A stretch of DNA of 64,000 nt from Streptomyces sp. NBC_01267 (GTDB lineage Bacteria > Actinomycetota > Actinomycetes > Streptomycetales > Streptomycetaceae): assembly GCF_036241575.1 (NCBI RefSeq), contig NZ_CP108455.1:1012501-1076500 (forward strand), given 5' to 3'. Of the stretch, positions 13,051 to 26,639 are shown in pieces (the first letter of the stretch is position 1; each line of letters begins with the position of its first letter). The notes under the pieces are model-generated. The model did no database searches and had not been told where the DNA came from. It saw only the letters and a program-made list of their open reading frames with translations. Made by a program: the position numbers and the translations under genes.

Positions 13051-13656
13051 TCAGGTGACGGCGTGCGCGCGGGCCTTCCCGGCGAGGTCCATCGCGTGCT
13101 CGACGACCGCGACGAGCACGTCCTTCACCGTCTCCCGCTCGCGTGCGTCGCACATCATGACGGGCACTTCGGGGTCCAGGTCGAGGGCCGAGCGCACGGT
13201 GTCCCCGGGGTAGCGGTCCGCCCCGTCGAAACAGTTGACGGCGACGGTGAACGGGATGGAGCGCCGCTCGAAGTAGTCGACCGCGGCGAAGCAGTCCTCC
13301 AGACGGCGGGTGTCGGCGAGCACCACGGCGCCCAGCGCGCCCTGCGCCAGTTCGTCCCAGAGGAACCAGAACCGGTCCTGCCCCGGTGTACCGAAGAGGT
13401 AGAGGACCAGGTCCTCGCGGAGGGTGATCCGTCCGAAGTCCATCGCGACCGTGGTGGTGGTCTTCTGCTCCACCCCGTCGGTGGAGTCCACGGGACGGCC
13501 CGCCTCGCTGAGGGTCTCCTCGGTGCGCAGCGGCCGGATCTCGCTGACCGCGCCCACCAGGGTGGTCTTGCCGACGCCGAACCCGCCCGCCACCAGGATC
13601 TTGAGGGTCACCGGCTCGACGAGCTGCTGGTTGCGGCTAGAGCGCCCGAAGGCCAT
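13051..13656 (-). CDS. cvnD: Conservon GTPase CvnD (Ras-like)
   Basis: This 201-residue small GTP-binding protein has the P-loop GGFGVGKTT (K30), TTTTVAMDFG as switch region and LFGTPGQDRFWF as the G3 box. Such proteins end the cvnABCD operons of Streptomyces, where CvnD is thought to act as a membrane-associated switch with CvnA-C, somewhat like eukaryotic G-protein systems. The NKxD box is replaced by VNCFDGAD, as is usual in this family. It overlaps cvnC by 20 bp. Its output is not known. Confidence 0.93.
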   Translation of the reverse strand: MAFGRSSRNQQLVEPVTLKILVAGGFGVGKTTLVGAVSEIRPLRTEETLSEAGRPVDSTDGVEQKTTTTVAMDFGRITLREDLVLYLFGTPGQDRFWFLWDELAQGALGAVVLADTRRLEDCFAAVDYFERRSIPFTVAVNCFDGADRYPGDTVRSALDLDPEVPVMMCDARERETVKDVLVAVVEHAMDLAGKARAHAVT

Positions 13657-14035
13657 TGATTACCTCGCGAAGAATGCTGACGTCCGGCAGCTCGGCCGGC
13701 GGTACGGGCTGGGTCACACGGACAAGGGCGTCGTCGACGAGGTCGCCGACCAGGACACGTACTACTCCTACGGGCAGATCGAAGTCGGCCGCGAGTTCGG
13801 CGATCGACTGCGGTGCGGCGCTGCACCGCTCCACGATGTCCACGTGTTCGGGCGAGAGGGTCTGGTCCCTGCCCAGGTACTCGGCCGCCGGCTCGGGGAC
13901 GACCAGCGCGATCAGATCGAGCCGGTGGCCGCCCTCGGCGCCGGTACGGCCGCGCGTCATGGCGTACGGCCGTACTACGGGTCCTGCGTCGTCGTCGAAC
14001 CAGTGGTGTGCCGGTGGTCGGCCCCCGTCGCTCAT
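13637..14035 (-). CDS. cvnC: Conservon protein CvnC (DUF742)
   Basis: The 132-residue DUF742 protein has VRPYAMTRGRT near the N-terminus and a winged-helix-like core (ELAADFDLPVGVVRVLVGDL). Its C-terminal VSILREVINGLRAL is typical of CvnC. The ATG at 14035 is preceded by GAGGGG; an upstream start at 14095 would overlap cvnB. The gene lies 10 bp after cvnB and overlaps cvnD. The role is presumed to be in assembling the CvnA-D complex. Confidence 0.92.
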   Translation of the reverse strand: MSDGGRPPAHHWFDDDAGPVVRPYAMTRGRTGAEGGHRLDLIALVVPEPAAEYLGRDQTLSPEHVDIVERCSAAPQSIAELAADFDLPVGVVRVLVGDLVDDALVRVTQPVPPAELPDVSILREVINGLRAL

Positions 14036-14045
14036 GGCGTTCCCC

Positions 14046-14483
14046 TCACCCTCCGGCGGTGAGCCCGGTCCGTGGTGCTGTCGCGAGGTGGGCACCGACC
14101 CGCTTCACCATGAGCGTCATCTCGTACGCCACCAGGCCGACGTCGGAGTCGGCGTCGGACAGCACCGCGAGACAACTCCCGTCGCCCGCGGCCGTGATGA
14201 AGAGGAAGGCGTCGTCCAGTTCCACGACGGTCTGGCGGACCCGGCCCGCTTCGAAGTGACGGCCGACCCCCTTGGCCAGGCTGTGGAAGCCGGAAGCCAC
14301 GGCGGCGAGGTGCTCGCCGTCCTCACGTGTCAGATCCTTCGAGGTGCCGGTGGCGAGGCCGTCGCCCGACAGGACCAGTGCCTTGCGGATACTGCCGACC
14401 CGCTCCACCAGCTCGTCGAGGAGCCAGTTGAGCTCGCCGGGTCCCCCTGCGGCGTTGTGTACTACTGCGTTCGGTACGGTCAT
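14046..14483 (-). CDS. cvnB: Conservon protein CvnB (Roadblock/LC7 domain)
   Basis: The 145-residue protein is a single Roadblock/LC7 domain, with the LNWLLDELVERVGSIRKALVLSGDG start and the conserved GDGSCLAVLSD strand. Such domains dimerise and act as partners or regulators of small GTPases, here CvnD. It overlaps the cvnA stop by 4 bp, so it is translationally coupled to the sensor kinase gene. Confidence 0.93.
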   Translation of the reverse strand: MTVPNAVVHNAAGGPGELNWLLDELVERVGSIRKALVLSGDGLATGTSKDLTREDGEHLAAVASGFHSLAKGVGRHFEAGRVRQTVVELDDAFLFITAAGDGSCLAVLSDADSDVGLVAYEMTLMVKRVGAHLATAPRTGLTAGG

Positions 14484-17194
14484 CGACCGGTCCCCTCCGA
14501 TGTGGTTCCTGGTGCTCCGTCGGCCGGTCCGGTGCCGACGGCGGCTGATTCTGCCGATTCCTGTGCCGAGTTGTCGCGGCGGCCCCGCTGCCAGCCACGC
14601 TGGAGCGACGCCATGCGGCTGCGTACCTCGTCGGCGTCCCGTTCCTCGTCCGCCGCGGTGCCGGACGGCTCAGCCGCGGGTGCGGGCGCCCGGCGCAGCT
14701 GCGGGGCGATGTTCGCCTGACGGACCCGCCGGGGCAGCCCGCCGGGACTGCCGGGGGCGGGCACGGCCCTGGGCGGTTCGGGCCTGTCCCCCGTGCGGCC
14801 GGGCCCTTCCGGCACGCGTACCGGCCCGTCCGTCACGCGTACCGGCCCGTCGGTCCTGCGTACCGGCCCTTCCGCCGTACGCCCGGGTCCGTCGACCCGG
14901 CGTCCGTGGTCGGAGACGAGAGTCGGCGGCTTGCGGCGCCGGGGCAGCCCGACGGGCCCGGTGGGACGCGCGGACTCGGACGGTGCCGTGCCCTCGTCCG
15001 GGGTCTGCTGATGTTGGTCACGCGGAGCGGCCGGGGCGCGATTGCGGAAGATGCCGCCCGGTGAGCTGTCCTCGTCGGCCAGGTCCGCCGCCTCGTCGAA
15101 CGCCAACACCTCGACGGGCGGCTCCAGTTCGACCGGCCCGTCCAGTACGGACGCGGGCGGCCGTCCGGCGCCGGGCACCGGCGAGAGCACGGAACGTGAT
15201 CCGGTCCTGTGTGCGCTGCGCCGGTCGGCGCGGAAGCCGGTTCCGTCGGTACCGGGCCGCTCCGTACCGGCTCCGACGGCGTCGGGTCCCTCGCTGTCCG
15301 GCGCGTCGGTGAGCAGCGCCACCGGGATGAAGATGACGGCGGTCGTGCCGCCGTAGGGCGATGTCTGGAGCGAGACCCGGACGTTCTGCCGCTGCGCGAG
15401 CCTGCTGACCACGAAGAGGCCGAGCCGGTCGGTGTCGGACAGCTCGAACTCGGGGGTCTCGGCGAGACGCAGGTTCGCGTCGAGGAGCGCGTCGGGGGTG
15501 ATCCCGAGTCCACGGTCGTGGATCTCCAGGGTGAACCCGTTGGCGACACGCTCGCCGTGCACCTGCACCGCGGTGTGCGGAGGCGAGAACACCGTGGCAT
15601 TCTCCAGGAGTTCGGCGACGAGGTGAGTGAGGTCCGCGACGGCGGGACCGCCGACGCCGATCCTCGGCAGCCGGCGTACCTCGATGCGTTCGTAGTCCTC
15701 GACCTCCGCGACCGCGGCCCGTACGACGTCCATCAGCTGGACCGGCTTGCGCCACTGCCGGGAAGGTGCGGCGCCGGAGAGGATCACCAGGCCCTCGGCG
15801 TGCCGGCGCATACGGGTGGTGAGGTGGTCGAGACGGAAGAGATCCGCGAGCTCTTCGGTGTCCTCGGTGCGGCGCTCCATGCTGTCCAGCAGCGTCAGCT
15901 GCCGGTGCAGCAGTACCTGGTTGCGGCGGGCGAGGTTGACGAAGACCTCGGAGACACCACGGCGCAGGTCGGCCTGGCGCACGGCGGCTTCGACGGCGGC
16001 CCGCTGCACGGTGTTGAGTGCGAGGCCGACCTGGCCGACCTCGTCCTTCTCGTACTCCAGACGGGGCGCCTCGGTCTCGACGTCGACCTGTTCACCGGCG
16101 GCGAGACGGCGCATCACGCTGGGCAGCCGCACCCCGGAGACCTCGTGGGCCTCCTTGCGCAGCCGGCTCAGGTCGCGGATGAGCTCCCGGCCGATGCGTA
16201 CGGACACCATCAGGGACACCAGCAGTCCGCCGATGCCGAGCAGCGCGGCGATCCCGGCCTTGGCGAAGATCCGGAAGGCGGCGGGCCGCACCCGGTCCTG
16301 GAGTTCCTTGCGGGCGTCGGCGCCCATCACGTCGAGGCGGTCGAGCGTCCGTCCGGCGTCCGTGCTCCACCGGGAGGCGGATCCGGTGATGGTGGTGCTT
16401 CCCGGGTTCCTGCTGACCGCTGATTCCTCGGCGGTGCGCACCGGGGTCGTCGCCGGGCCGCTCCAGTAGGCGTTGAACGCGTCACGGTCCTGGCGGGGCA
16501 GTGCGGGAAGGCTGACGGTGTAGTACATCTTGCGAGTGGCGACCAGGTCCGAGATGTCCCGCAGATCCCGCTTGTCCAGTCGGCCCCCGGTGAGGGCCGA
16601 GCCGAGCAGGGCGTCCTCACGGGAGAGCGCCTCACGGGCCCGGCTGACGCCGATCAGGGCACGCGACTGCTCGGCCAGACTGGAGTTCTGCAGCGTGGGC
16701 AGGTCGGCGAGGAGGTCGAGCGCCTGGTCGCAGAGGCGGTTGTACTGGTCGTACGCTTCGCGGCGCGTCACTTCGTTGTCGCCCGCGTTGCGCCGCAGCG
16801 AACCGAGTCCGGCGAACCCGTCCATGAGGCCGCTCAGCCGCCGGCCCGCGTCCTCGTCGAGTGCCGAACGGACGTCGCCGCTTCCGGTGTCGTGCCGCAA
16901 CGTGGCCAGGGAGGCGTCGGTGCTCGCACGTTGCTCGCGCAGCGCGGCAAGGACGTCCGAGGCGCCCGGGTCGACGAGGTAGCGGAGCGTCAACGACCGT
17001 TCCTTCTGCACCTCTTGCAAGGAATCGACCAGCGGGCGACCCACCTTTTTCACGACGGTTCCGGTGCGCATCAGTTGCAGGGCGTCGCGACCGGTGAGGT
17101 AGACGGCGAACGACCAGATCGCTGTCAACGCGACGAGTGGGACCAGCAACAGCGCCACGATCTTCCTGCGGACGGATCTCCCGCGAAAGCGCAT
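14480..17194 (-). CDS. cvnA: Conservon sensor kinase-like protein CvnA (NIT, HAMP, HATPase)
   Basis: The 904-residue membrane protein has TM1 at residues ~12-34, an extracellular nitrate/nitrite-sensing-type (NIT) domain to ~300, TM2 near 308-330 and a HAMP segment. A coiled region and a histidine-kinase-type ATPase domain with ELLENATVFSPP, HDRGLGI and SDTDRLGLFVVS boxes follow. The last ~280 residues are Pro/Arg-rich and include near-heptad GPVRxTDG repeats (coded at about 14800-14900). The ATG follows GGGGGAGG. It heads cvnABCD and is probably the ligand-sensing subunit. Confidence 0.93.
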   Translation of the reverse strand: MRFRGRSVRRKIVALLLVPLVALTAIWSFAVYLTGRDALQLMRTGTVVKKVGRPLVDSLQEVQKERSLTLRYLVDPGASDVLAALREQRASTDASLATLRHDTGSGDVRSALDEDAGRRLSGLMDGFAGLGSLRRNAGDNEVTRREAYDQYNRLCDQALDLLADLPTLQNSSLAEQSRALIGVSRAREALSREDALLGSALTGGRLDKRDLRDISDLVATRKMYYTVSLPALPRQDRDAFNAYWSGPATTPVRTAEESAVSRNPGSTTITGSASRWSTDAGRTLDRLDVMGADARKELQDRVRPAAFRIFAKAGIAALLGIGGLLVSLMVSVRIGRELIRDLSRLRKEAHEVSGVRLPSVMRRLAAGEQVDVETEAPRLEYEKDEVGQVGLALNTVQRAAVEAAVRQADLRRGVSEVFVNLARRNQVLLHRQLTLLDSMERRTEDTEELADLFRLDHLTTRMRRHAEGLVILSGAAPSRQWRKPVQLMDVVRAAVAEVEDYERIEVRRLPRIGVGGPAVADLTHLVAELLENATVFSPPHTAVQVHGERVANGFTLEIHDRGLGITPDALLDANLRLAETPEFELSDTDRLGLFVVSRLAQRQNVRVSLQTSPYGGTTAVIFIPVALLTDAPDSEGPDAVGAGTERPGTDGTGFRADRRSAHRTGSRSVLSPVPGAGRPPASVLDGPVELEPPVEVLAFDEAADLADEDSSPGGIFRNRAPAAPRDQHQQTPDEGTAPSESARPTGPVGLPRRRKPPTLVSDHGRRVDGPGRTAEGPVRRTDGPVRVTDGPVRVPEGPGRTGDRPEPPRAVPAPGSPGGLPRRVRQANIAPQLRRAPAPAAEPSGTAADEERDADEVRSRMASLQRGWQRGRRDNSAQESAESAAVGTGPADGAPGTTSEGTGR

Positions 17195-17582
17195 GGCCTC
17201 CCCCAGCTCAACCCCGCCCGGCGGGGGTGGTGTTCCGGCAATAAACGGCGCGAGCCTACTACTGCCTCACAGGCAACTCGAAGGGACGTCCGGACTATTT
17301 TCGGCCTCCTGTACGGGAGTTGATCACGCCATGTCCTGGTTTCCCAGCAGATCGCCTTCCCCGACCGGGCGGAAGAACTCCGGCAGTACGTCACTTTCCA
17401 CACCCGCGGGGATGGCCGGAATTCTCTGCATGGCGGGAATCTTTACCGGAAGTTGTTCGTCCTTGCGTACGAGGGGCGCAGGAGAGGCAGCGGATGCTTG
17501 AACCGGCTCAAGCCGGGCATCCGTTCTGGAGTCGGACAGCGCCTGGGCCGTGTGCGCGGGTCGAGGGAGAAGGGGAAGAGGG
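17195..17582. other. Divergent intergenic region upstream of cvnA and the 138-aa membrane protein
   Basis: No convincing gene is seen in this 388-bp region. It must hold the cvnA promoter on the minus strand and the promoter of the small membrane protein on the plus strand. GAGAAGGGGAAGAGGG just before 17583 is the ribosome-binding site of the latter. I could not assign promoter hexamers with confidence. Confidence 0.6.
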
Positions 17583-17999
17583 ATGGCCGTCGAAGAGGGC
17601 GAAGTCCCCGTGCGGCCCCTGTGGGTCGAAGAGCCCGCGGTGCGGCCACGGATGCCGGACCCGGTGCGCAGCAGCGCGGTGCGCGCCGTGCTCATCGTTT
17701 CCGTGACGCTGATCCAGGCGGTGACGGCTTTCCTGTCCACCGTGACGGACTCCTGGCTCGCCTTCCCGATGGTGCTCAGCAGTGTGGCCAGTACCGTCGT
17801 CGCGACGTGGGCCGTACTGGATGTCTGGATCACCCGGCAGGTGTGGAACCAGCGCCACGGCGTCACCTCGGTTCCCAGCAGCACGGCGCGCCGGCTGCGC
17901 AGGGAGCGGCGCAGGGAACGCCGCGCGGCACGTCGGCAGGAGCGGGACGCCGAGCGGATACGGGCGAACCGCTCGGCGAGGCTCTCGACCCAGATCTGA
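17583..17999 (+). CDS. Small basic membrane protein, unknown function
   Basis: This 138-residue protein has two hydrophobic segments (about residues 33-52 and 60-84) joined by a short loop. Its C-terminal tail is very basic and Arg-rich, rich in RRLRRERRRER-type sequence, and probably helical. The ATG at 17583 has a strong purine-rich ribosome-binding site; the earlier in-frame start lacks one. It lies between the cvn operon and the SMC-like cassette, converging on the latter. The tail suggests a cytoplasmic nucleic-acid or acidic-protein contact, which is inference only. Confidence 0.65.
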   Translation: MAVEEGEVPVRPLWVEEPAVRPRMPDPVRSSAVRAVLIVSVTLIQAVTAFLSTVTDSWLAFPMVLSSVASTVVATWAVLDVWITRQVWNQRHGVTSVPSSTARRLRRERRRERRAARRQERDAERIRANRSARLSTQI

Positions 18000-18155
18000 T
18001 CCCGGCAGGTCCGAGCCCAAGTCCGAACCCGGTATGTCCGAGCCCGGCAGGTCCTGGTCCGGCAGCTTCGCCCCGCTGTCTTGAGTCCTCGGCCCCTGAG
18101 GCGTACGGATTCTCGGGCGGCGCGGCCCCGGGCCCGCGCCCCAGGGCGCCCGCCG

Positions 18156-21100
18156 CTACTCCCGCACGGGTACGCCCGCCGGGGCCCGGTCGATGGCGTC
18201 CGGGGTCTGCTCGGTGGCCGCCGGGGTCCGCTTGAACATCCGGGTCGCGGTGATCTCGCCGTGCACCTGCTCCCCGCCGGGGTCCTGCTGGGGCAGTCCG
18301 GGCCGCAGATGCTCCTCCACGCTGATGTACTTCAGCCCGGCCCGCAGGTCCGCGTCGTTGCGCAACCTGATCACCAGGGGGAATTCAGCGAGCGCGGTGG
18401 TGTCGAACAGGCCCGTCGTGTAGAGCAGTTGGACGCCGAGGGCGTCGGATACCGCCCGCTGGAGCTCCAGCAGATAGGTGGCATTCGCCCGGCCGATCGG
18501 GTTGTCGAGGAAGAGCGTGCCCGCGTGCCGGTGCTTGTCGCGACCCCGGTCGTTGCTGCGCAGCGCGGCCATCGTGCAGTACAGGGCGATGGCGGCGGTG
18601 AGCAGCTGGCCGCCGGAGAAGACATCGCCCATCTGCCCGACCGGGACGCGCTCCGCGCGCAGCACCGCGTCGGGCTTGAGGATCTCGACAGCCACGCCCT
18701 TGGGTTCGAGCGCCGCGTGGACTCCGCGCAGCAGCAGTGACATCCCGTCCCTGCGCAGGTCGGAGTTCTTCTTCAGCGCTGCCCTGGTCGCCTCGTCGAT
18801 GACCTCGCCCAGCCGTTCCGCGAGAGTGGCCTGGTCGGGCTCGTCGAAGCGGATCCGCAGGAACTCCTGGCCGGACCACTCGCCCAGCCCCTCGGGCAGC
18901 TGGGAGAGCCGCTGTGCCGAGCGGAGGGTGGTGAGTGCGGATTCGACCAGCCCGCGCAGCCGGTCCACGATCGAGTCGCGGTTGCGCTCCAGCTGTTCCA
19001 GCTCGTCGGTGAGCACCCGGAGCCGGGGGGCGAAGGCCGCCGCCCACTTCGCGGCGTGCTCGGGCAGCGCGGAGGCGGGCAGTTCACGGATCTGCTGGCG
19101 CGCCGGGGTGCGGACCTGTTCGTAGCGGGTCGCGTTGGCGTGCCGTACGAGAACGTCGCTCGCCTCACGCACGGCGGACTCGGCGCCGGAGAGGTCACCG
19201 GCGCAGCCGCGCAGTGAGCGGCGGGCCTCGGCCGCCGACCGGCGGGCCTCCTCCAGCGTGCCGGGGAACGGCTCGGGGGTCGCGTTCTCCGTGGCCGCCG
19301 GGCCCGCCGCGCCCTCGTCGTCGCGGTGCGGGTCGCGGAGCAGGTCCCTCAGCAGGGCCGCGGCCTCGTCGAAGCCGCCTGCGGCATCCTCCGACGCCCG
19401 GTGGGCGTGCAGCAGCTCGGCGTGGGCCGCGCGCGAGGCCTCCAACGCATCGGTACCGGCGGCCAGTTCGGCGGTTGCGGTACGCAGCAGGGCCTGTGCG
19501 GCGTCCGCGTCCGCGGGCACCCGCTCAGCGGGCAGCGCCGTGTGGGTCTCGGTACCGTCCGCCGGTGCGAGCCGCTCGGCCTCGCCGCGCAGCCTGCCCA
19601 GCTGCTCGCTGGCGGCCGACGCCCGCGACTCCAGCATCTGGACGAGGGACTCGGCGCGGGCCGCCGCGGCCTGCCGGGAGGGGCCGTCCGCGCCGTCGGT
19701 GGATTCGAGGAGTTGGGCGGCGCGGGTGCGGACCTTGTTGCTGAGCCGGTCGAGTTCGGTGCGGGCCGCGCTCTCGTCACTCTCCGCCCTGGCCTGTTCG
19801 GCGCGCAGGTCCGCTCCGACGCCGACCTTCTCGTACAGCTGGGAGGCGGCGCGGTAGGCCTCGCGCAGGTCGGGCAGTGCGGGGCGCGGGGTGTCCGGGT
19901 CCGGTTCGGGGAGGTCCTCGGGCACCCCGGCGATCTCGGCCCGCTCGGCGCGCAGCGCGCGGGCGGTGCGGTGCGCGTCGTCGGCGGCGCGCTGCGCCGC
20001 CCTGCGGTCCTCGTCGGCGGCCCTGGCCCGCTCCAGGCAGGTCGCTGCCCGGGTCTCCGACTCGGCTGCCTCGTCGGCCAGTTCGCGCAGGGTGACCTGC
20101 CAGCCCGCCCGTTCACGGAGCCGGAAGGCGAGTCCGGCGAGGGCGTCGGCCACCCGGCGGGCGCGCTGTGCGACGTCCTGCCGTTCGTCCCGCTCCCGCG
20201 CCGCGTCGGCTGCCGCCTCGTCGGCCTCCGCGCGGGCCGTACGCGCCTCTTCGAGTTCCGTCCCCGCGGTCCCGGCCGCCTCCTCGGCAGCGCTCGCCGC
20301 GGCGGCCAGTTCCGCGAGCGTTCCCGGCGGGCAGTCCGCACGCCAGGATCCGAGCCGGGCGGCCAGCGTGCGGTCGCCGCCGAGCCGGGCGGCCAGTCGG
20401 CGGATCTCCTCGTCGCGGTCGCCCGCGCGGGTACGCAGTGCCTGGCGTTCCTCGTCGGCGGCGTGCTCGTCGTGCATGGCCGGGTTCGGCGGCACGAGGA
20501 AGATGTCGCTCCCGGTCCCCGACGGTCCCGGTCCCGGAACGGGCGCCAGCAGGGCGGCAGCGGTACCGACCGCGACGGCGGAGCGCGGCAGCAGGGCCGC
20601 TCCGGTGAGTGCTTCGCGGGCCCTGGTGTGGGCGGCCGGGTCGGTGATGACCACGCCGTCGACCAGCTCGGGCCTGGTGGCCAGCACCGCTGCGTGGTCG
20701 GCGGGGTCCACCGCCTGGGCGAGATAGCGCCAGCCGGGCAGTGCGGGGATGCCGTGCTCGCCGAGGAATTCGACGGTGGCCAGCACATCGGGTCCCGGGG
20801 GCAGCAGCCCGCCGTCGCCGAGTGCGCCGAGGATGCGGGCGTCGTCGGCGGCGGCGGTGCGCAGCTCGAAGAGCTGCCGCTCGGCCGAGGTGACACCGCG
20901 GTCGAGCAGCGCCTGGAGCTCTTCCGCGTTGCGGTCCAGTTCCTCGGCGGTGAGCGAACCCCGGGTGAGCGTACGGGCGGAGCTTTCGGTCCTGTCGTCG
21001 GCAGCGCCCTGGGCCGCGCCGCCGGCGGCACGTGCGGGCGGGTCCTCGGCCGTGCCCGCGCGGTCCTGCTGCGGGGTCCCGGCGCCGCTGCGGGGGCCCG

Positions 21101-22964
21101 GCAGGCCCACGGTCGCCGTGCCGGGGAGACTCAGCAGTTCGGCGAGGCGGTACTCCGAGGCGATGGACCCGGCCTCGCGCAGTTCCGCCGCGTAGGCACG
21201 CTCGGTGGCCTGCGCGGCGTCCGCCGCTCGGGCTGCGGCGAGCTCGGCGCGGGCTTCGTCGGCGGCGGCCTCCTTGGCCTGCTGGGCCGTGGTGCGGGCC
21301 TGTTCGCGGGCGCTGTCCCACGCGGCGACCGCGGACTTCTCCGCGTCGCTGGCGGCCAGTGCGGCGCGCGCCGGGTCGGCGTCGGGTGCGGTGTCGTCGA
21401 GCCAGCCCGCGCGGACGGCTTCGGCGGTCTCCTGGCCGACCTCGGTGAGGCGCTGGCGCAGATGTCCGGCCTCGCTGCGGGCACGCTGTGCTTCGGTGGC
21501 CGCTGCCGTGGCGTCGCGGTGCGCGGCCTCGCCCGCCTCCTGGAGTGCGGCGGCGCGCTCCTCCTCCTCGTTCGCGCGCCGCTCGCCGGCCTCGGCGGCC
21601 GTGCGCAGCGCCCGGACGAGGTCGGCCGCGGCCGTGCCCCGGGCGGCCAGTGCGGGCGCCGCGTCCCGTTCGGCCTCACGGATGGCTACGGCGACGCGCG
21701 CGGAACGGTCGGCCGCCGCACGGTGACGCAGTACGGCCTCGGCTGCCTGCCAGGCCGAGTGGAACGTCCGCGCGTCGGCCAGTTCCCTGCGCTGCGCCGC
21801 CGCGGACTTCTCGGCGACGGCGAGTGCCAGGGAGGCGTGCCGGTAGGCGAGTTCGGCGGCGATCAGCGCGCTGCGTCCCCTGACCTCCTCGGCCTCGGTG
21901 ACGGTGTGGGCGGCGGAGGTGACCTGCTGGGCCAGGTCGGCGGCCCGGCCGCGCTCCTGGGCGGAGCGCGCGGAGAGCCTGCGGGCGAGCGTGCGGGTAC
22001 GGCGCTCGGCGCCCGCGTGGATGTCCCGGGACCGCGACCTGGCTTCGGCGGCTTCGACGATCCGGCCGAGCAGATCGGCGGAGCCCGCGGTGAAGTCCCG
22101 TTCGGCGGTGAGCTCCGCGCGGCGGCCGAGTTTGTTGCCGAAGCCGGCGACGAGGTCGGCCAGGCCGTCCGTGTCACGGGTGTCGGTGACGGCCCGCAGC
22201 AGCAGGTCCGTGAAGTCGGAGTCCTTCTTCACCGCGAAGAGACCGGCCGCCTCCCCCTCGTCGGCGTTCATCTCACGCTGGTAGCGGAAGAGTTCGGGGT
22301 CGAGGCCCAGGTCACCGAGGTGTTCGTTCCAGCGGTCGTGGATCTCTTCCCACTGCACGTCCAGATGCGGATACGCCTTGCCCGCTTCGGTGATCGCGTC
22401 GCGGAAGCCCTTCATGGTCCGGCGGCGGCCCCGGGCCCCCGACACACCTTCCACCGGCGGACGTACGGCGGTGGATTCGGCGACCGGGAGGGAGTCGAGA
22501 CTCAGGCCGGGCCCCGGCCTGAACGAGTACCAGGCCTCGGCGAACTTGCGCGGGTCGTTGGAGACCTGCCGCCCCCGCCACTCGCTGGCCTTGCCGACGA
22601 CGACGAGCTCGCCGGTGAGGGTGTGCTGCCACTCCAGGGCGACATGGCCGCAGTCGTCGGCGAGGAGGAATTTACGCAGCACACCGGAGCTGGCCCCGCC
22701 CAGTGTGTTGCGGTGGCCGGGCAGCATCACCGAGAAGATCAGCTTCAGCAGGACGGACTTGCCACCGCCGTTCTCCAGGAAGAGGACCCCGGCCGGAGCC
22801 GGCCGGCGCGGCGGACCGACCGGCTCCGCCTCGAAGAACTCCGCCTGCATCGGGGCCGGGCTGGGCACGGGAGAGCCCACTCCCCGCAGGTCGAGCACGG
22901 TGTCGGCGTAGCGCGCACCGGCAGGTCCGATGGAGTAGAGGCGGACCCGGGACAGCTCGTACAT
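18156..22964 (-). CDS. SMC/MukB-like coiled-coil ATPase (1602 aa)
   Basis: This very long protein has an N-terminal ATP-binding half with Walker A ENGGGKSVLLKL (K69). A central Ala/Glu/Arg-rich coiled-coil region of about 1000 residues follows, interrupted near 650-800 by a more globular, hinge-like part. The C-terminal half carries the ABC signature FSGGQLLTA (near 1447) and a Walker B-like LFLDNPIGRAN, with D1487 followed by Asn rather than Glu. This layout is that of SMC/MukB/JetC-type DNA-organising ATPases. Two smaller upstream genes on the same strand complete a kleisin-KITE-SMC-like set. No nuclease gene is present. Exact family and function are unproved. Confidence 0.8.
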   Translation of the reverse strand: MYELSRVRLYSIGPAGARYADTVLDLRGVGSPVPSPAPMQAEFFEAEPVGPPRRPAPAGVLFLENGGGKSVLLKLIFSVMLPGHRNTLGGASSGVLRKFLLADDCGHVALEWQHTLTGELVVVGKASEWRGRQVSNDPRKFAEAWYSFRPGPGLSLDSLPVAESTAVRPPVEGVSGARGRRRTMKGFRDAITEAGKAYPHLDVQWEEIHDRWNEHLGDLGLDPELFRYQREMNADEGEAAGLFAVKKDSDFTDLLLRAVTDTRDTDGLADLVAGFGNKLGRRAELTAERDFTAGSADLLGRIVEAAEARSRSRDIHAGAERRTRTLARRLSARSAQERGRAADLAQQVTSAAHTVTEAEEVRGRSALIAAELAYRHASLALAVAEKSAAAQRRELADARTFHSAWQAAEAVLRHRAAADRSARVAVAIREAERDAAPALAARGTAAADLVRALRTAAEAGERRANEEEERAAALQEAGEAAHRDATAAATEAQRARSEAGHLRQRLTEVGQETAEAVRAGWLDDTAPDADPARAALAASDAEKSAVAAWDSAREQARTTAQQAKEAAADEARAELAAARAADAAQATERAYAAELREAGSIASEYRLAELLSLPGTATVGLPGPRSGAGTPQQDRAGTAEDPPARAAGGAAQGAADDRTESSARTLTRGSLTAEELDRNAEELQALLDRGVTSAERQLFELRTAAADDARILGALGDGGLLPPGPDVLATVEFLGEHGIPALPGWRYLAQAVDPADHAAVLATRPELVDGVVITDPAAHTRAREALTGAALLPRSAVAVGTAAALLAPVPGPGPSGTGSDIFLVPPNPAMHDEHAADEERQALRTRAGDRDEEIRRLAARLGGDRTLAARLGSWRADCPPGTLAELAAAASAAEEAAGTAGTELEEARTARAEADEAAADAARERDERQDVAQRARRVADALAGLAFRLRERAGWQVTLRELADEAAESETRAATCLERARAADEDRRAAQRAADDAHRTARALRAERAEIAGVPEDLPEPDPDTPRPALPDLREAYRAASQLYEKVGVGADLRAEQARAESDESAARTELDRLSNKVRTRAAQLLESTDGADGPSRQAAAARAESLVQMLESRASAASEQLGRLRGEAERLAPADGTETHTALPAERVPADADAAQALLRTATAELAAGTDALEASRAAHAELLHAHRASEDAAGGFDEAAALLRDLLRDPHRDDEGAAGPAATENATPEPFPGTLEEARRSAAEARRSLRGCAGDLSGAESAVREASDVLVRHANATRYEQVRTPARQQIRELPASALPEHAAKWAAAFAPRLRVLTDELEQLERNRDSIVDRLRGLVESALTTLRSAQRLSQLPEGLGEWSGQEFLRIRFDEPDQATLAERLGEVIDEATRAALKKNSDLRRDGMSLLLRGVHAALEPKGVAVEILKPDAVLRAERVPVGQMGDVFSGGQLLTAAIALYCTMAALRSNDRGRDKHRHAGTLFLDNPIGRANATYLLELQRAVSDALGVQLLYTTGLFDTTALAEFPLVIRLRNDADLRAGLKYISVEEHLRPGLPQQDPGGEQVHGEITATRMFKRTPAATEQTPDAIDRAPAGVPVRE

Positions 22965-23084
22965 GGCGGCGGACTCTCGTCGTTGTCAGGGAGAAGGGAG
23001 ATCAGGCGGTATCGGTCAGGAACAGTCAGGCAGCAGTGCAAGTGGGGCAGTTGGCGTTCGGGGCGGTTTCGGGTCGGTGAGCGG

Positions 23085-23993
23085 TCAGGTGTGGAAGGGC
23101 AGGCCGGCGTCGGCGGCCAGTTCGAGGTCGTCCGCCTCGGACGGCGGCACGAGTGTCGCCGTGCCGTCGCCCACCGGTACGACCCCCAGCTCCAACAGCT
23201 CGGCCATGGCGGCACTGCCCGCCATGTCGCGTACCTGGAGCTGATAGCGGGCAGTGGTGCGGTACGCGCCTCCGGCGTCGTCACCGGTGCGCTGGAGGAA
23301 TCCCGATTCCGTGAGGAAGACGACGGCCTTGGCCACGATTCCGGTGGTGGAACCCGCCAGTCGTCTGGCGTCCTTGGTGGCGCCGGTGGAGCTGCGCCGG
23401 GCATAGATGCGCCAGGCCGCTTCGAGGCCAGGTGCCTCGGTGGCCGGGTCGCTGTTCTCGCCCTGCTCCTCGGCGCGCTCTTCCAGACGGCGGCAGGCCT
23501 GACGGACGAACGCGTCGACGCCGTTGACCGTGATGCGGCCGATGTAGCCGTCGTCGGCGAGGTCTTCCGGACGCGGGAACGACATGGCGGCGACGGCCAG
23601 ATGAGCCAGTCCGTGCAGAAAGCGGTCGGCCGAGTCGGCAGCCGCCCGGCGGGCGTAGTCACCCATCCGTACGGCGAAGACCGAGTCCTCGCCCGCGGCG
23701 ACGGCCATTCCGGCGCGGGTCGAGACCTCCAGGACGACCAGCCCGAGTCCGGTGGCGATCGCGTCGGCGAGACGGGCGAAGGCCGGGGCTTCGCGGTAGC
23801 GGCGCAGCAGCTCCGCGTATTCGGCGTCGCGGGCGGGCAGCAGCTTGGGCTGCAGGCCGAAGGCGACCAGCCGCGCCGCGTCGGCGGCATCGGCCGGGGT
23901 CACCGCGGAACCGGCCGCGGCGGCGGACGGTGTGGCGCTGTCGGCCTGGTCCGGCTCGCTCCACGCGGTGTACTCGGCGTGGGTCTCGCTCAC
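23085..23993 (-). CDS. Putative KITE-like (MukE/JetB-type) subunit of the SMC-like cassette
   Basis: The 302-residue acidic protein has two regions that look like winged helices: residues near 45-200 (LLRRYREAPAFARLADAIA, then SVFAVRMGDYA) and a second with GIVAKAVVFLTESGFLQR. Its size and position between the ~508-aa protein and the SMC-like gene match the MukE/MksE/JetB slot. The GTG at 23993 is chosen for AGGAG upstream; the longer reading from 24113 encodes low-complexity His/Arg repeats. The gap to the SMC-like start is 120 bp. The assignment rests on architecture and weak sequence features. Confidence 0.6.
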   Translation of the reverse strand: MSETHAEYTAWSEPDQADSATPSAAAAGSAVTPADAADAARLVAFGLQPKLLPARDAEYAELLRRYREAPAFARLADAIATGLGLVVLEVSTRAGMAVAAGEDSVFAVRMGDYARRAAADSADRFLHGLAHLAVAAMSFPRPEDLADDGYIGRITVNGVDAFVRQACRRLEERAEEQGENSDPATEAPGLEAAWRIYARRSSTGATKDARRLAGSTTGIVAKAVVFLTESGFLQRTGDDAGGAYRTTARYQLQVRDMAGSAAMAELLELGVVPVGDGTATLVPPSEADDLELAADAGLPFHT

Positions 23994-24035
23994 GGCTGCG
24001 GCTCCTGGGTCGGTACGCGCGAGGGTGTCCCGCAC

Positions 24036-24062
24036 GCGGTGGATGCGGTGGATGCGGTGGAT
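24036..24062 (+). repeat. Tandem 9-bp repeat GCGGTGGAT, three copies
   Basis: Three exact head-to-tail copies of GCGGTGGAT lie in the 229-bp gap between the first two genes of the SMC-like cassette, followed by a partial copy. This looks like slippage in non-coding spacer DNA. Confidence 0.85.
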
Positions 24063-24158
24063 GCGGATGCGGTCGGTGCATACGAAGTCGGTACGTACGG
24101 GGTGGCTGCGCACGGGACGGGTCCGTACGCGGTCGGTACGCAGCCGGTCGGTGTCCGG

Positions 24159-24188
24159 GCCGGTGCCGGTGCCGGTGCCGGTGCCGGT
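24159..24188 (+). repeat. Tandem 6-bp repeat GCCGGT, five copies
   Basis: Five exact copies of GCCGGT lie in the same gap as the 9-bp repeat, about 100 bp away and 34 bp from the end of the upstream gene. Copy number is likely to vary between strains. Confidence 0.85.
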
Positions 24189-24222
24189 GTCGTCCGGCCG
24201 GGCACCGGTCGTGGCTCGGCCC

Positions 24223-25749
24223 TCATCCCGCCTCCGTACGGCCCGCGGCCATTCCGACCGTGTCGAGCAGCGCCGTACCGACGATCAGGTCGGCGCCGCC
24301 GAACTCCGGGTCGTCCAGCTCGGTCCCGTCGTCCACGGCGAAGAGCAGCCGCTGCTCTCCCTGCCGATAGGCCGTGCCGACCGGCGGGCTCGCCGCGTGG
24401 ATGGCCAGCAGGGCGACCAGGTACGGCAGTTCTGGATCACGGCGCCGGGCGTCGGCCAGCAGCCCGGAGAGCCGTCGGGGGGCGTCGTGCTCCAGGTCGA
24501 GCAGCTCCGTCGCACCGGCCAGCTGCTCCTCGCTGAACCGGCTGTCGTCCGGGGTCGCGATGAGATCGGGCTCGGGCATCTCCACGCCGAGGTGCTCCCG
24601 TTCCGCCGGCGGGGTCAGCAGGATGTCGACCAGGTCCCCGACCCGTACCGATACGGGTGTACGCAGTCCGGTGCCGCGCGCGAAGAAGGCGTCCGTGACC
24701 CGGATGGCCTGCTCCAGCGGCAACGGCAGCACGGGGGCCACCAGCTGTCCGTACAGATCCAGTCCCGCGCTCGCCGTCGGGGCGGCGAAGGCCTGCCGGT
24801 CCTGCTCCGCGCGGAAGAGCGGTCCCGCCTCCAGGAGCCGGGACTGGAGCTGGGTGTGGCGGCGGATGCAGTCCTTGACTATGTCCACGAGCTCGGCGGC
24901 GCGCCGTTTGTTCTCCGGCTCCTCCGCCTCGTCCCTGGCCTTGCGGATGTTGGTGAGGATCGCGTTCTCGTGGCGGTAGCGGTCGGCGACGTGGTCGAGC
25001 GCCTCGTCGATCATGTCCGGGACGGCCTTGAGCCAGTCGACCGCGCGGACGTTGCGCCGGGTCGCCTCCAGGGTCCTGCGCAGCGTCTCCGCGTACTGCA
25101 CGGTCCGGTACCTGGCCTGCTCGGCGGCGAGCTGCGCGTCCGCGAGCCTGCCCCGGCTGATGAGCACTTCGAGCTTCACCTCGGCGGCGATCTGCGCGCT
25201 GGTCACATCGGTGTCGAGGGCGCCCACCAGGACATTGACCGCCTCGTCGGTGGTGCGCAGGTAGACCGTCCCGCCGTGTCCGGGGACCTCCTCGACAAGT
25301 TTGAAGTCGTAGTCCCGCCGGACATAGGCGCCGTCGGGGCCGAAAGTGCCGTAGACCGCGCGGAACCCCCGGTCCACGCTGCCGACGTTGATCAGGTTCT
25401 CCAGCACCCAGCGGGCCACCCGCTCGTGTTCCTCCGCCGGGCGGTGCGGTGCCTGGGCCGCGACGCGCGGGAGCAGCCTGGCCACTATCTGGTCGTGGTC
25501 GGCCCCGGTGTCGAAGTCCATGTTGAGCGTGACCAGATCGATGGCGGCCAGCGCGACTTCCGCCATCGCGTAGACCGTGAACTCACCGGCCAGATTGGCC
25601 TTGCGCACGTCGAGATCGTGCAGCGGCGCGGTGCACGCGAGCGCGCGCAGCCGCCGCGCGAGCCCTTCGTCGGCGGCCGGGCCCGGTGCGGGCCGCGGCC
25701 CCGCGCTGAGCTGGGGCGGAACGAATTCCGTCGAGGCAGGCGAAGTCAC
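24223..25749 (-). CDS. Putative kleisin-like (MukF/JetA-type) subunit of the SMC-like cassette
   Basis: The 508-residue, mostly helical protein starts with a wing-like region (residues ~25-180, including the RRDYDFKLVEE strand and YLRTTDEAVNVLVGAL). A long helical stretch follows (AQIAAEVKLEVLISRGRLAD, then TLEATRRNVRAVDW), which resembles JetA/MksF proteins. The GTG at 25749 is the start most consistent with the divergent pxpA promoter region. It is the first gene of the three-gene minus-strand set. The kleisin role is inferred from order, size and helical pattern. No enzymatic motif is visible. Confidence 0.6.
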   Translation of the reverse strand: MTSPASTEFVPPQLSAGPRPAPGPAADEGLARRLRALACTAPLHDLDVRKANLAGEFTVYAMAEVALAAIDLVTLNMDFDTGADHDQIVARLLPRVAAQAPHRPAEEHERVARWVLENLINVGSVDRGFRAVYGTFGPDGAYVRRDYDFKLVEEVPGHGGTVYLRTTDEAVNVLVGALDTDVTSAQIAAEVKLEVLISRGRLADAQLAAEQARYRTVQYAETLRRTLEATRRNVRAVDWLKAVPDMIDEALDHVADRYRHENAILTNIRKARDEAEEPENKRRAAELVDIVKDCIRRHTQLQSRLLEAGPLFRAEQDRQAFAAPTASAGLDLYGQLVAPVLPLPLEQAIRVTDAFFARGTGLRTPVSVRVGDLVDILLTPPAEREHLGVEMPEPDLIATPDDSRFSEEQLAGATELLDLEHDAPRRLSGLLADARRRDPELPYLVALLAIHAASPPVGTAYRQGEQRLLFAVDDGTELDDPEFGGADLIVGTALLDTVGMAAGRTEAG

Positions 25750-25865
25750 GCTGCACAGATTAGGTCCTCGCACCGACAACGGTCGAAACGGCGCGGATGG
25801 GACGGCTGCTCCAGGGGGCCCGCACGGCCGGCGACAGCTAGGCTGCTGCCCCCGGAGGGAGCCGT

Positions 25866-26639
25866 ATGACCGCGACCGCCATGACCACGATCGACCTGAA
25901 CGCCGACCTCGGCGAGGGGTTCGGCCGCTGGACACTCACCGACGACGAGGCGCTGCTCTCCGTCGTCACCAGTGCCAATGTCGCCTGTGGCTTCCACGCC
26001 GGTGACCCCTCGACGATGCGCCGCGTCTGCGAGCTTGCCGCCGCACGCGGAGTACGGATCGGGGCCCAGGTCTCGTACCGGGACCTGGCCGGCTTCGGGC
26101 GGCGCGCGATGGACGTACCGTCGCGTGAACTCGCCGACGAAGTGGCCTACCAGATCGGTGCGTTGGAGGTGTTCGCGCGGGCCGCCGGAGCCTGGGTGGC
26201 CTACGTCAAGCCGCACGGCGCGCTCTACAACCGCACCGTCCACGACGAGGAGCAGGCCGCTGCGGTCGTCGAGGGCGTACGGCTCGCCGGGGGCGGCCTG
26301 CCGGTGCTCGGACTGCCCGGGTCACGGCTGCTGGAGGCCGCCGGTGACGCGGGGCTCGTGCCGGTTCAGGAGGCGTTCGCCGATCGCGCGTACACCGCGC
26401 AGGCCACGCTCGTTCCGCGCACCCGGCCCGACGCCGTGGTGCACGACCCGGAGGCGGTGGTCGCCCGTGCCCTCTCCATGGCGCGCGACCACTCGGTGTC
26501 CGCGGTCACCGGCGAGCGGCTCGTCGTCGACGCCCGTTCGCTCTGTCTGCACGGCGACACCCCCGGGGCCGCGGAACTGGCACTACGGGTCCGCCGTGAA
26601 CTGCTCGCCGGGGGCGTGGTCCTGGAGCCCTTCGCGTGA
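25866..26639 (+). CDS. pxpA: 5-oxoprolinase subunit PxpA (LamB/YcsF family)
   Basis: The 257-residue protein has the family signature TIDLNADLGEGFGRW and the VKPHGALYNR motif. PxpA with PxpB and PxpC hydrolyses 5-oxoproline (pyroglutamate) to glutamate using ATP in the cytoplasm. The ATG at 25866 follows GGAGGGAG. It overlaps pxpB by 4 bp. Confidence 0.95.
   Translation: MTATAMTTIDLNADLGEGFGRWTLTDDEALLSVVTSANVACGFHAGDPSTMRRVCELAAARGVRIGAQVSYRDLAGFGRRAMDVPSRELADEVAYQIGALEVFARAAGAWVAYVKPHGALYNRTVHDEEQAAAVVEGVRLAGGGLPVLGLPGSRLLEAAGDAGLVPVQEAFADRAYTAQATLVPRTRPDAVVHDPEAVVARALSMARDHSVSAVTGERLVVDARSLCLHGDTPGAAELALRVRRELLAGGVVLEPFA

Follow-up and report, generated by a model that had tools for sequence, protein, structure and literature searches.

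What would a DNA motor of the plasmid-restricting Wadjet type be doing in a chromosome that encodes no cutter to go with it? The question is raised by a three-gene cassette, jetABC, in Streptomyces sp. NBC_01267, which lies within a window of 64,000 nucleotides (contig NZ_CP108455.1, positions 1,012,501 to 1,076,500; the whole stretch of DNA analyzed here). The cassette carries the kleisin, the probable KITE subunit and the SMC-type ATPase of a type III Wadjet, and lacks the JetD nuclease. We lean, with moderate confidence, towards a type III Wadjet motor having become a resident, probably damage-inducible SMC complex for genome maintenance. New here are the damage-type promoter before jetA and the family-specific tail of JetB; the set's type III identity, its origin most simply explained by JetD loss and its family-wide core status also go beyond what the initial annotation could see.

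The identity of the cassette is the first step. The initial annotation had described three minus-strand genes encoding proteins of about 508, about 302 and 1602 amino acids, and these are present (Table 1), each frame showing the third-position GC (guanine plus cytosine) content typical of coding sequence. JetA scores 628 bits against the PADLOC profile PDLC00567 (JetA3), and the best PDB rows retrieved by a structure search with its model are MukBEF/MukF entries; JetC scores 1385 bits against PDLC00588 (JetC3). All of the ATPase motifs read from JetC earlier are in place: a Walker A of ENGGGKS with K69, SGGQ at 1450, and LDNPIGRAN from 1486. The PADLOC JetB3 profile returned no row for the 302-residue protein, even at E 10. 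Its model (pLDDT 63) suggests that it is probably a MukE-like KITE: the top six Foldseek rows are five MukE-MukF chains and one E. coli Wadjet JetABC chain, all weak matches (E 8e-3 to 0.12, TM about 0.2), and the protein is 50% identical to its counterpart in L196, a Streptomyces copy that carries JetD. Scans of the cassette proteins against Pfam and NCBIfam gave no Muk or Mks family at E <= 1. The earlier SMC/kleisin/KITE assignment thus holds up, for the KITE by way of weak MukE/JetB fold matches; no protein fell into an unrelated family, the ATPase joined no non-SMC group, and no JetD lies nearby.

Two peculiarities of JetC were considered and set aside. Its Walker B reads LDNP instead of DE, which might be taken as the sign of a dead ATPase; that idea was ruled out, and the odd motif gives no clue to function because it is present in every aligned JetC row, JetD-bearing ones included. 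Similarly, a linker around residues 601-700 spans 46-270 residues in nine Streptomyces rows versus 42-52 in nine JetD-bearing rows, but is no mark of JetD loss, since six nuclease-free Pseudonocardiaceae rows have a short one of 42 residues.

Table 1. Positions in the window of the cassette genes and associated features
Feature	Position	Strand	Description
jetA	24223-25749	-	508 aa, GTG start; MukF-like kleisin, JetA3 family
jetB	23085-23993	-	302 aa; probable KITE (MukE-like)
jetC	18156-22964	-	1602 aa; SMC-type coiled-coil ATPase, JetC3 family
JetB tail AGLPFH	23091-23108	-	family-specific short motif
RecA-NDp/PafBC-type promoter, TTGTCGGTG-N8-TAATCT	25757-25779	-	7 nt upstream of jetA GTG
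-10 element TAATCT of jetA promoter	25757-25762	-	read from the sequence; lies in a stretch conserved across 70 aligned loci
pxpA (5-oxoprolinase subunit A)	25866-26639	+	PF03746; divergent neighbor, outside system

Is the nuclease really missing? No JetD was found in the window, nor in the genome it comes from (8.07 Mb, 99.3% complete) by search with PF09983 (JetD_C), in agreement with what the initial annotation had reported for the flanks of the cassette. Because PF09983 proved too insensitive for type III, ten type III JetDs were aligned; residues E208, D259 and D261 are invariant in this alignment (A1), and both of its members that were scanned are JetD3 in PADLOC. Searched against A1, the same genome gave no match (20 of 93 first-look candidates scored), and no remnant of JetD was found. 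Across the genus, where 20 candidates were scored per genome, A1 matched in 10 of 101 genomes, one of them weakly (G012), and PF09983 in 13, a union of 17. The remaining 84 match neither search, three of them being genomes without a JetA match, which leaves 81 of the 98 genomes with JetA. Finally, tblastn with 16 JetDs against 116 loci produced matches at the four JetD-carrying loci and, apart from these, a single match in L267 (E 0.048). A JetD that is divergent, split or distant, in an otherwise ordinary Wadjet, could exploit the blind spot of PF09983, which gave 11.9 bits, below cut-off, for the JetD of L196 and no match for that of L198. We regard such an oversight as very improbable, as neither A1 nor the tblastn search with 16 JetDs turned up a JetD in the genome that holds the window or at the loci classed as nuclease-free, which mostly contradicts it. 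The blind spot matters in its own right: surveys made with PF09983 alone undercount type III JetDs.

The set is also not a local curiosity. Of 101 genus genomes, 98 have a JetA match, so the cassette is not a chance reading, and two of the three genomes without one are less than 90% complete; among Streptomycetaceae JetA is present in 120 of 121 genomes and in 17/17 genera, as fragments only in a few. Of 533 loci found, 80 were kept, 79 labeled Streptomyces and one Kitasatospora. Complete cassettes number 74; contig ends interrupt five more, and L084 has undergone rearrangement. JetD is absent from the 74 complete cassettes and was found at none of the 80 loci. The gene order proposed from a single sequence is thereby extended across Streptomyces, with a match to the pxpA frame in the fetched DNA of 60/79 loci, some of which are too short to reach it. 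Fifteen other genera of the family, represented by one locus each, all have JetABC without JetD. In 21 of 23 genomes chosen for long contigs, the core locus sits 0.5-2.4 Mb from a contig end, the exceptions being G007 and G012.

Divergent second copies present the reverse picture. In every copy that was fetched with readable downstream DNA, JetD adjoins (15/15: 12 from a first batch and three from other genera). A thirteenth copy of the first batch, L194, has a JetD state that is unreadable because its contig ends inside jetC, and second JetA copies in, for example, G397, G672, G687, G697 and G718 stand outside the count of 15. One accessory JetABCD, L198 of genome G090, occurs near both chromosome ends (C1:8876 and C1:9228840), probably in terminal repeats, with JetD matches at both end copies, one of them partial. 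A DefenseFinder survey of Actinobacteria describes Wadjet as enriched towards the ends of Streptomyces chromosomes (PMC10482375), and its main text makes no mention of JetD.

The core cassette is kept by purifying selection. For seven pairs, the ratio of nonsynonymous to synonymous substitution rates (dN/dS, NG86) is 0.07-0.21 for JetA, 0.11-0.37 for JetB and 0.14-0.34 for JetC. Among the complete cassettes, SGGQ and LDNPIGRAN are intact in 74/74, and 72/74 also carry Walker A in its strict form.

How might such a set have come about? Beyond Streptomycetaceae, loci in two families, whose family names were taken from protein records, offer a view. JetA occurs in 19 of 35 Frankiaceae genomes; 11 core-like loci were fetched, ten without JetD and one (L273) with it, and in two of the JetD-free loci (L179, L184) less than 1.5 kb of DNA follows jetC. 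Of 150 Pseudonocardiaceae genomes, 47 have JetA; among the 19 loci fetched, 14 have no JetD and five do. In the Pseudonocardiaceae genus g141, JetA copies L270 and L271 are sisters (support 100/100) that differ in their JetD state, only one of them having the nuclease, which probably points to a recent loss. Class-wide scans scored 3-5 candidates per genome, and distant copies outside these three families may be missed; in those scans a single Pseudonocardiaceae genome surfaced only with an alignment query and a larger sample.

A JetA tree of 54 rows requires at least five changes of JetD state, four of them forced by well-supported branches. The tree was rooted on an outgroup picked from JetD-bearing copies; it has several long branches, and L194 was not counted. 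Streptomyces JetA forms one clade (100/100) nested among JetD-bearing type III Wadjet lines, and joins Frankiaceae JetA with support of 90/87, or 98/97 in a tree of 45 rows. The simplest reading of these sequences is that JetD was lost repeatedly, while exchange between families or regain of JetD may offer alternative histories. On the former reading, JetD would have been lost from a type III JetABC in an ancestor of at least Streptomycetaceae, and the motor kept as a core chromosomal complex. There is a precedent for loss of JetD followed by a chromosomal role: P. aeruginosa MksBEF is described as likely to have arisen from JetABCD by JetD loss and as contributing to chromosome organization (PMC10586767). 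The set considered here likewise combines kleisin, KITE and SMC without a nuclease, with a MukF-like JetA fold and a probably MukE-like JetB; it differs in that it matches no Muk or Mks family and belongs by sequence to the Wadjet III lineage, and its loss of JetD was therefore probably independent of that of MksBEF.

The promoter of jetA provides a hint of when the complex might be made. Just upstream of the gene, the window reads TTGTCGGTG-N8-TAATCT-N7-GTG, an exact fit to the RecA-NDp consensus, which we take to be TTGTCRGTG-N8-TANNNT. The jetA transcript is probably leaderless, judging from this arrangement. Over 70 aligned loci, the upstream region varies until about 45 nucleotides from the start; from there on, and into the coding sequence, it hardly changes. 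A plain sigma-70 promoter is a misfit, with only 11 nucleotides between TTGTCG and TAATCT. In 77 of 79 loci (two have no upstream DNA), a site always stands 6-7 nucleotides before the start, with 0, 1, 2 and 3 mismatches at 11, 11, 38 and 17 loci, respectively; as a control, 30/1540 random windows contained a match with 0-3 mismatches. A broader second sample began with 84 loci, from which duplicates and five loci without anchor were removed; the 62 counted, the window's own included, divide 19/10/26/7 over the same classes. Among the 15 other genera, four loci are exact, four have one mismatch, one has two, four have three, and two have four or five.

The exact pattern occurs twice in the window against 0.00 expected, and at 24 sites genome-wide against none in a reversed control. 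These sites precede recA, uvrB, PolIII alpha, dnaX and a UvrD-type helicase, among others. Of the 23 other first open reading frames downstream, picked by script from the nearest start, nine have DNA-transaction domains (RecA, UvrB, PolIII alpha, DnaX, UvrD, MgsA, RecD2-HHH, Cas3-HD and DEAD), ten have other domains and four have none. The recA frame has a GTG 7 nucleotides past its site, the same spacing as jetA; the usual recA start is presumably the ATG 12 codons beyond. The second exact site of the window, TTGTCAGTG-N8-TACTGT at 2189-2211 on the minus strand, stands a few nucleotides upstream of a 305-residue frame without a Pfam match. RecA-NDp is described as a damage promoter of actinobacteria that works independently of RecA and to which PafBC binds in mycobacteria (PMC6789036, PMC8223512); it precedes the UV-inducible SCO6735 in S. 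coelicolor (PMC5087735). In essence, jetA resembles recA, uvrB and SCO6735 in its promoter motif and in the short distance from motif to frame, and a damage-type promoter combined with a lost cutter suggests a weapon turned into a tool for chromosome care. The available text of the RecA-NDp/PafBC literature names no SMC-type complex as a member of this regulon.

Several observations weigh against the genome-maintenance reading. At locus L204, in Streptomyces genome G012, jetA is truncated at its C terminus and no jetB or jetC match remains, so the set is dispensable in that strain, a natural loss of the cassette; G012 also has JetD-like matches elsewhere in its genome. In genus g190, with one genome searched, the JetA match is weak and partial (E 1.7e-14). 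More than two-thirds of the loci (55/77) carry two or three promoter mismatches, typically in a TTGTCAGAC-like form, and the nuclease-free loci of Frankiaceae and Pseudonocardiaceae have no promoter match within one mismatch. An initial search reported in PMC9380542 had suggested that S. venezuelae does not conserve the PafBC motif of M. smegmatis; the present counts, which concern sequence alone, speak against such non-conservation across the genus. Lastly, the promoter type is not confined to the core set: JetD-bearing accessory copies L190 and L193 have it exactly, L191, L192, L198 and L315 with one mismatch, and an exact RecA-NDp-type site precedes the Cas3-HD gene of the window's own genome (L283, C1:2226715). 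Damage control therefore cannot separate repair from defense. No such promoter, at 0-1 mismatch, was found at the JetD-bearing copies L188, L189, L195-L197, L199, L200, L313 and L314. As observations in their own right, these sites raise the prospect that anti-plasmid defense by accessory Wadjets may be damage-inducible in some copies, and the Cas3-HD site suggests, from its sequence, damage-linked control of a CRISPR effector.

Broken loci invite the thought that the cassette is a decaying remnant, left behind once JetD had gone; L204 fits, as do Frankiaceae L182 and L183, where jetC is not one open frame. We find this hardly credible, for it is already contradicted by conservation: dN/dS well below 1, intact motifs, a conserved promoter and a presence in 120 of the 121 family genomes.

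A more serious contender, and the chief rival, is non-cleaving restriction, in which JetABC would use loop extrusion to measure small circular DNA—plasmids or integrative elements—before silencing or trapping it rather than cutting it, much as Smc5/6 is said to treat viral DNA. Descent from an anti-plasmid system is in keeping with this idea, as is a promoter type held in common with JetD-bearing copies and Cas3, and an anti-viral role of Smc5/6 is discussed in PMC10586767. We nonetheless judge it unlikely, because the set is nearly universal, usually a single core, syntenic chromosomal copy under strong purifying selection, unlike the patchy accessory Wadjets.

The C terminus of JetB introduces a further possibility. 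LPFH lies within the last 12 residues of JetB at 74/74 complete loci of the Streptomyces set and at 14 of the 15 loci from other Streptomycetaceae genera, the remaining one having LPYH. Among the matches listed, drawn from two lists of at most 120 rows, LPF[HFY] occurs in the last 14 residues of 205/211 JetB homologs outside the 23 rows nearest a Frankia query, and in 0/23 of those rows. No JetD-bearing copy among those aligned has the tail. With its acidic stretch and AGLPFH, it may resemble SSB-tail or sliding-clamp motifs. At the other end of the protein, a JetD-contact motif of the kind described for type I Wadjet (PMC10586767) was looked for, but the aligned N-termini do not clearly set copies with JetD apart from those that lack it.

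A conserved tail of this kind could recruit another effector encoded elsewhere, so that the system would still attack DNA. That proposal gains from the conservation of the AGLPFH-like tail and its absence from the aligned JetD-bearing copies, and we consider it quite unlikely nevertheless: 84 of the 101 genus genomes match neither JetD search, and a replacement effector next door was sought and rejected, as none of the genes flanking the window's cassette recurs at the nuclease-free loci of Frankiaceae or Pseudonocardiaceae. More tentatively, the genome-maintenance reading can be extended to a damage-induced second condensin that serves as a bacterial counterpart of Smc5/6, in which JetD was lost, the damage promoter kept, and a C-terminal docking peptide gained by JetB that connects the loop extruder with forks of replication or repair in hyphae holding many genomes; we hold this extension to be doubtful.

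On the flanks of the cassette, the pxpA neighbor named by the initial annotation is confirmed by its Pfam match, whereas the 138-residue basic membrane protein is not confirmed as such: there are open frames at 17324-17884 and at 17508-18020, neither with a Pfam match. Farther downstream of jetC, 13637-17194 on the minus strand encodes a row of NIT-domain histidine kinase-like, Roadblock/LC7 and DUF742 proteins, presumably a Streptomyces conservon.

Taken on its own evidence, the earlier reading of a nuclease-free SMC/kleisin/KITE set is supported. Set beside type III Wadjet, the cassette is alike in its JetA and JetC profiles and gene order, and its JetB, though unmatched by the JetB3 profile, is homologous to that of JetD-bearing copies; type III Wadjets, however, are accessory and carry JetD, whereas the Streptomycetaceae set is core, family-wide, without JetD and endowed with a conserved JetB tail. 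Strictly speaking it is not a Wadjet, since JetD, the nuclease that defines such systems, was looked for and not found. Corynebacterium MksBEFG, a type I Wadjet, is also an actinobacterial SMC-kleisin-KITE set, but keeps its MksG (JetD) nuclease, and is described as a plasmid defense (PMC10123090). Streptomyces also has SMC, and a recent condensin paper on the genus treats SMC alone, as far as its available text goes (PMC13121528); searches limited to open PMC papers, mostly at the level of listings, brought up none that describes a Streptomyces set lacking JetD.

If the genome-maintenance reading is right, JetA, JetB and two JetC would assemble into a MukBEF/Wadjet-like motor, expected from its descent and fold to work as those motors do. 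By homology, it would hydrolyze ATP and extrude loops of DNA, and a completed loop could not end in cleavage, JetD being gone. With its RecA-NDp/PafBC-type, probably leaderless promoter, the operon would most likely be raised as single-stranded DNA accumulates. We infer that the complex would then act on the damaged or replicating chromosome, perhaps by compaction or by holding sisters or ends together, and would run beside Smc-ScpAB as a damage-responsive second condensin.

For the biology of the family, the finding means a second SMC complex in nearly every Streptomycetaceae genome examined, one that the present Pfam and NCBIfam scans did not pick up. The JetD-bearing relatives in sister genomes make motor and cutter directly comparable. 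More broadly, "Wadjet parts" in a genome need not mean anti-plasmid cleavage, a point that bears both on surveys of defense genes and on strain engineering.

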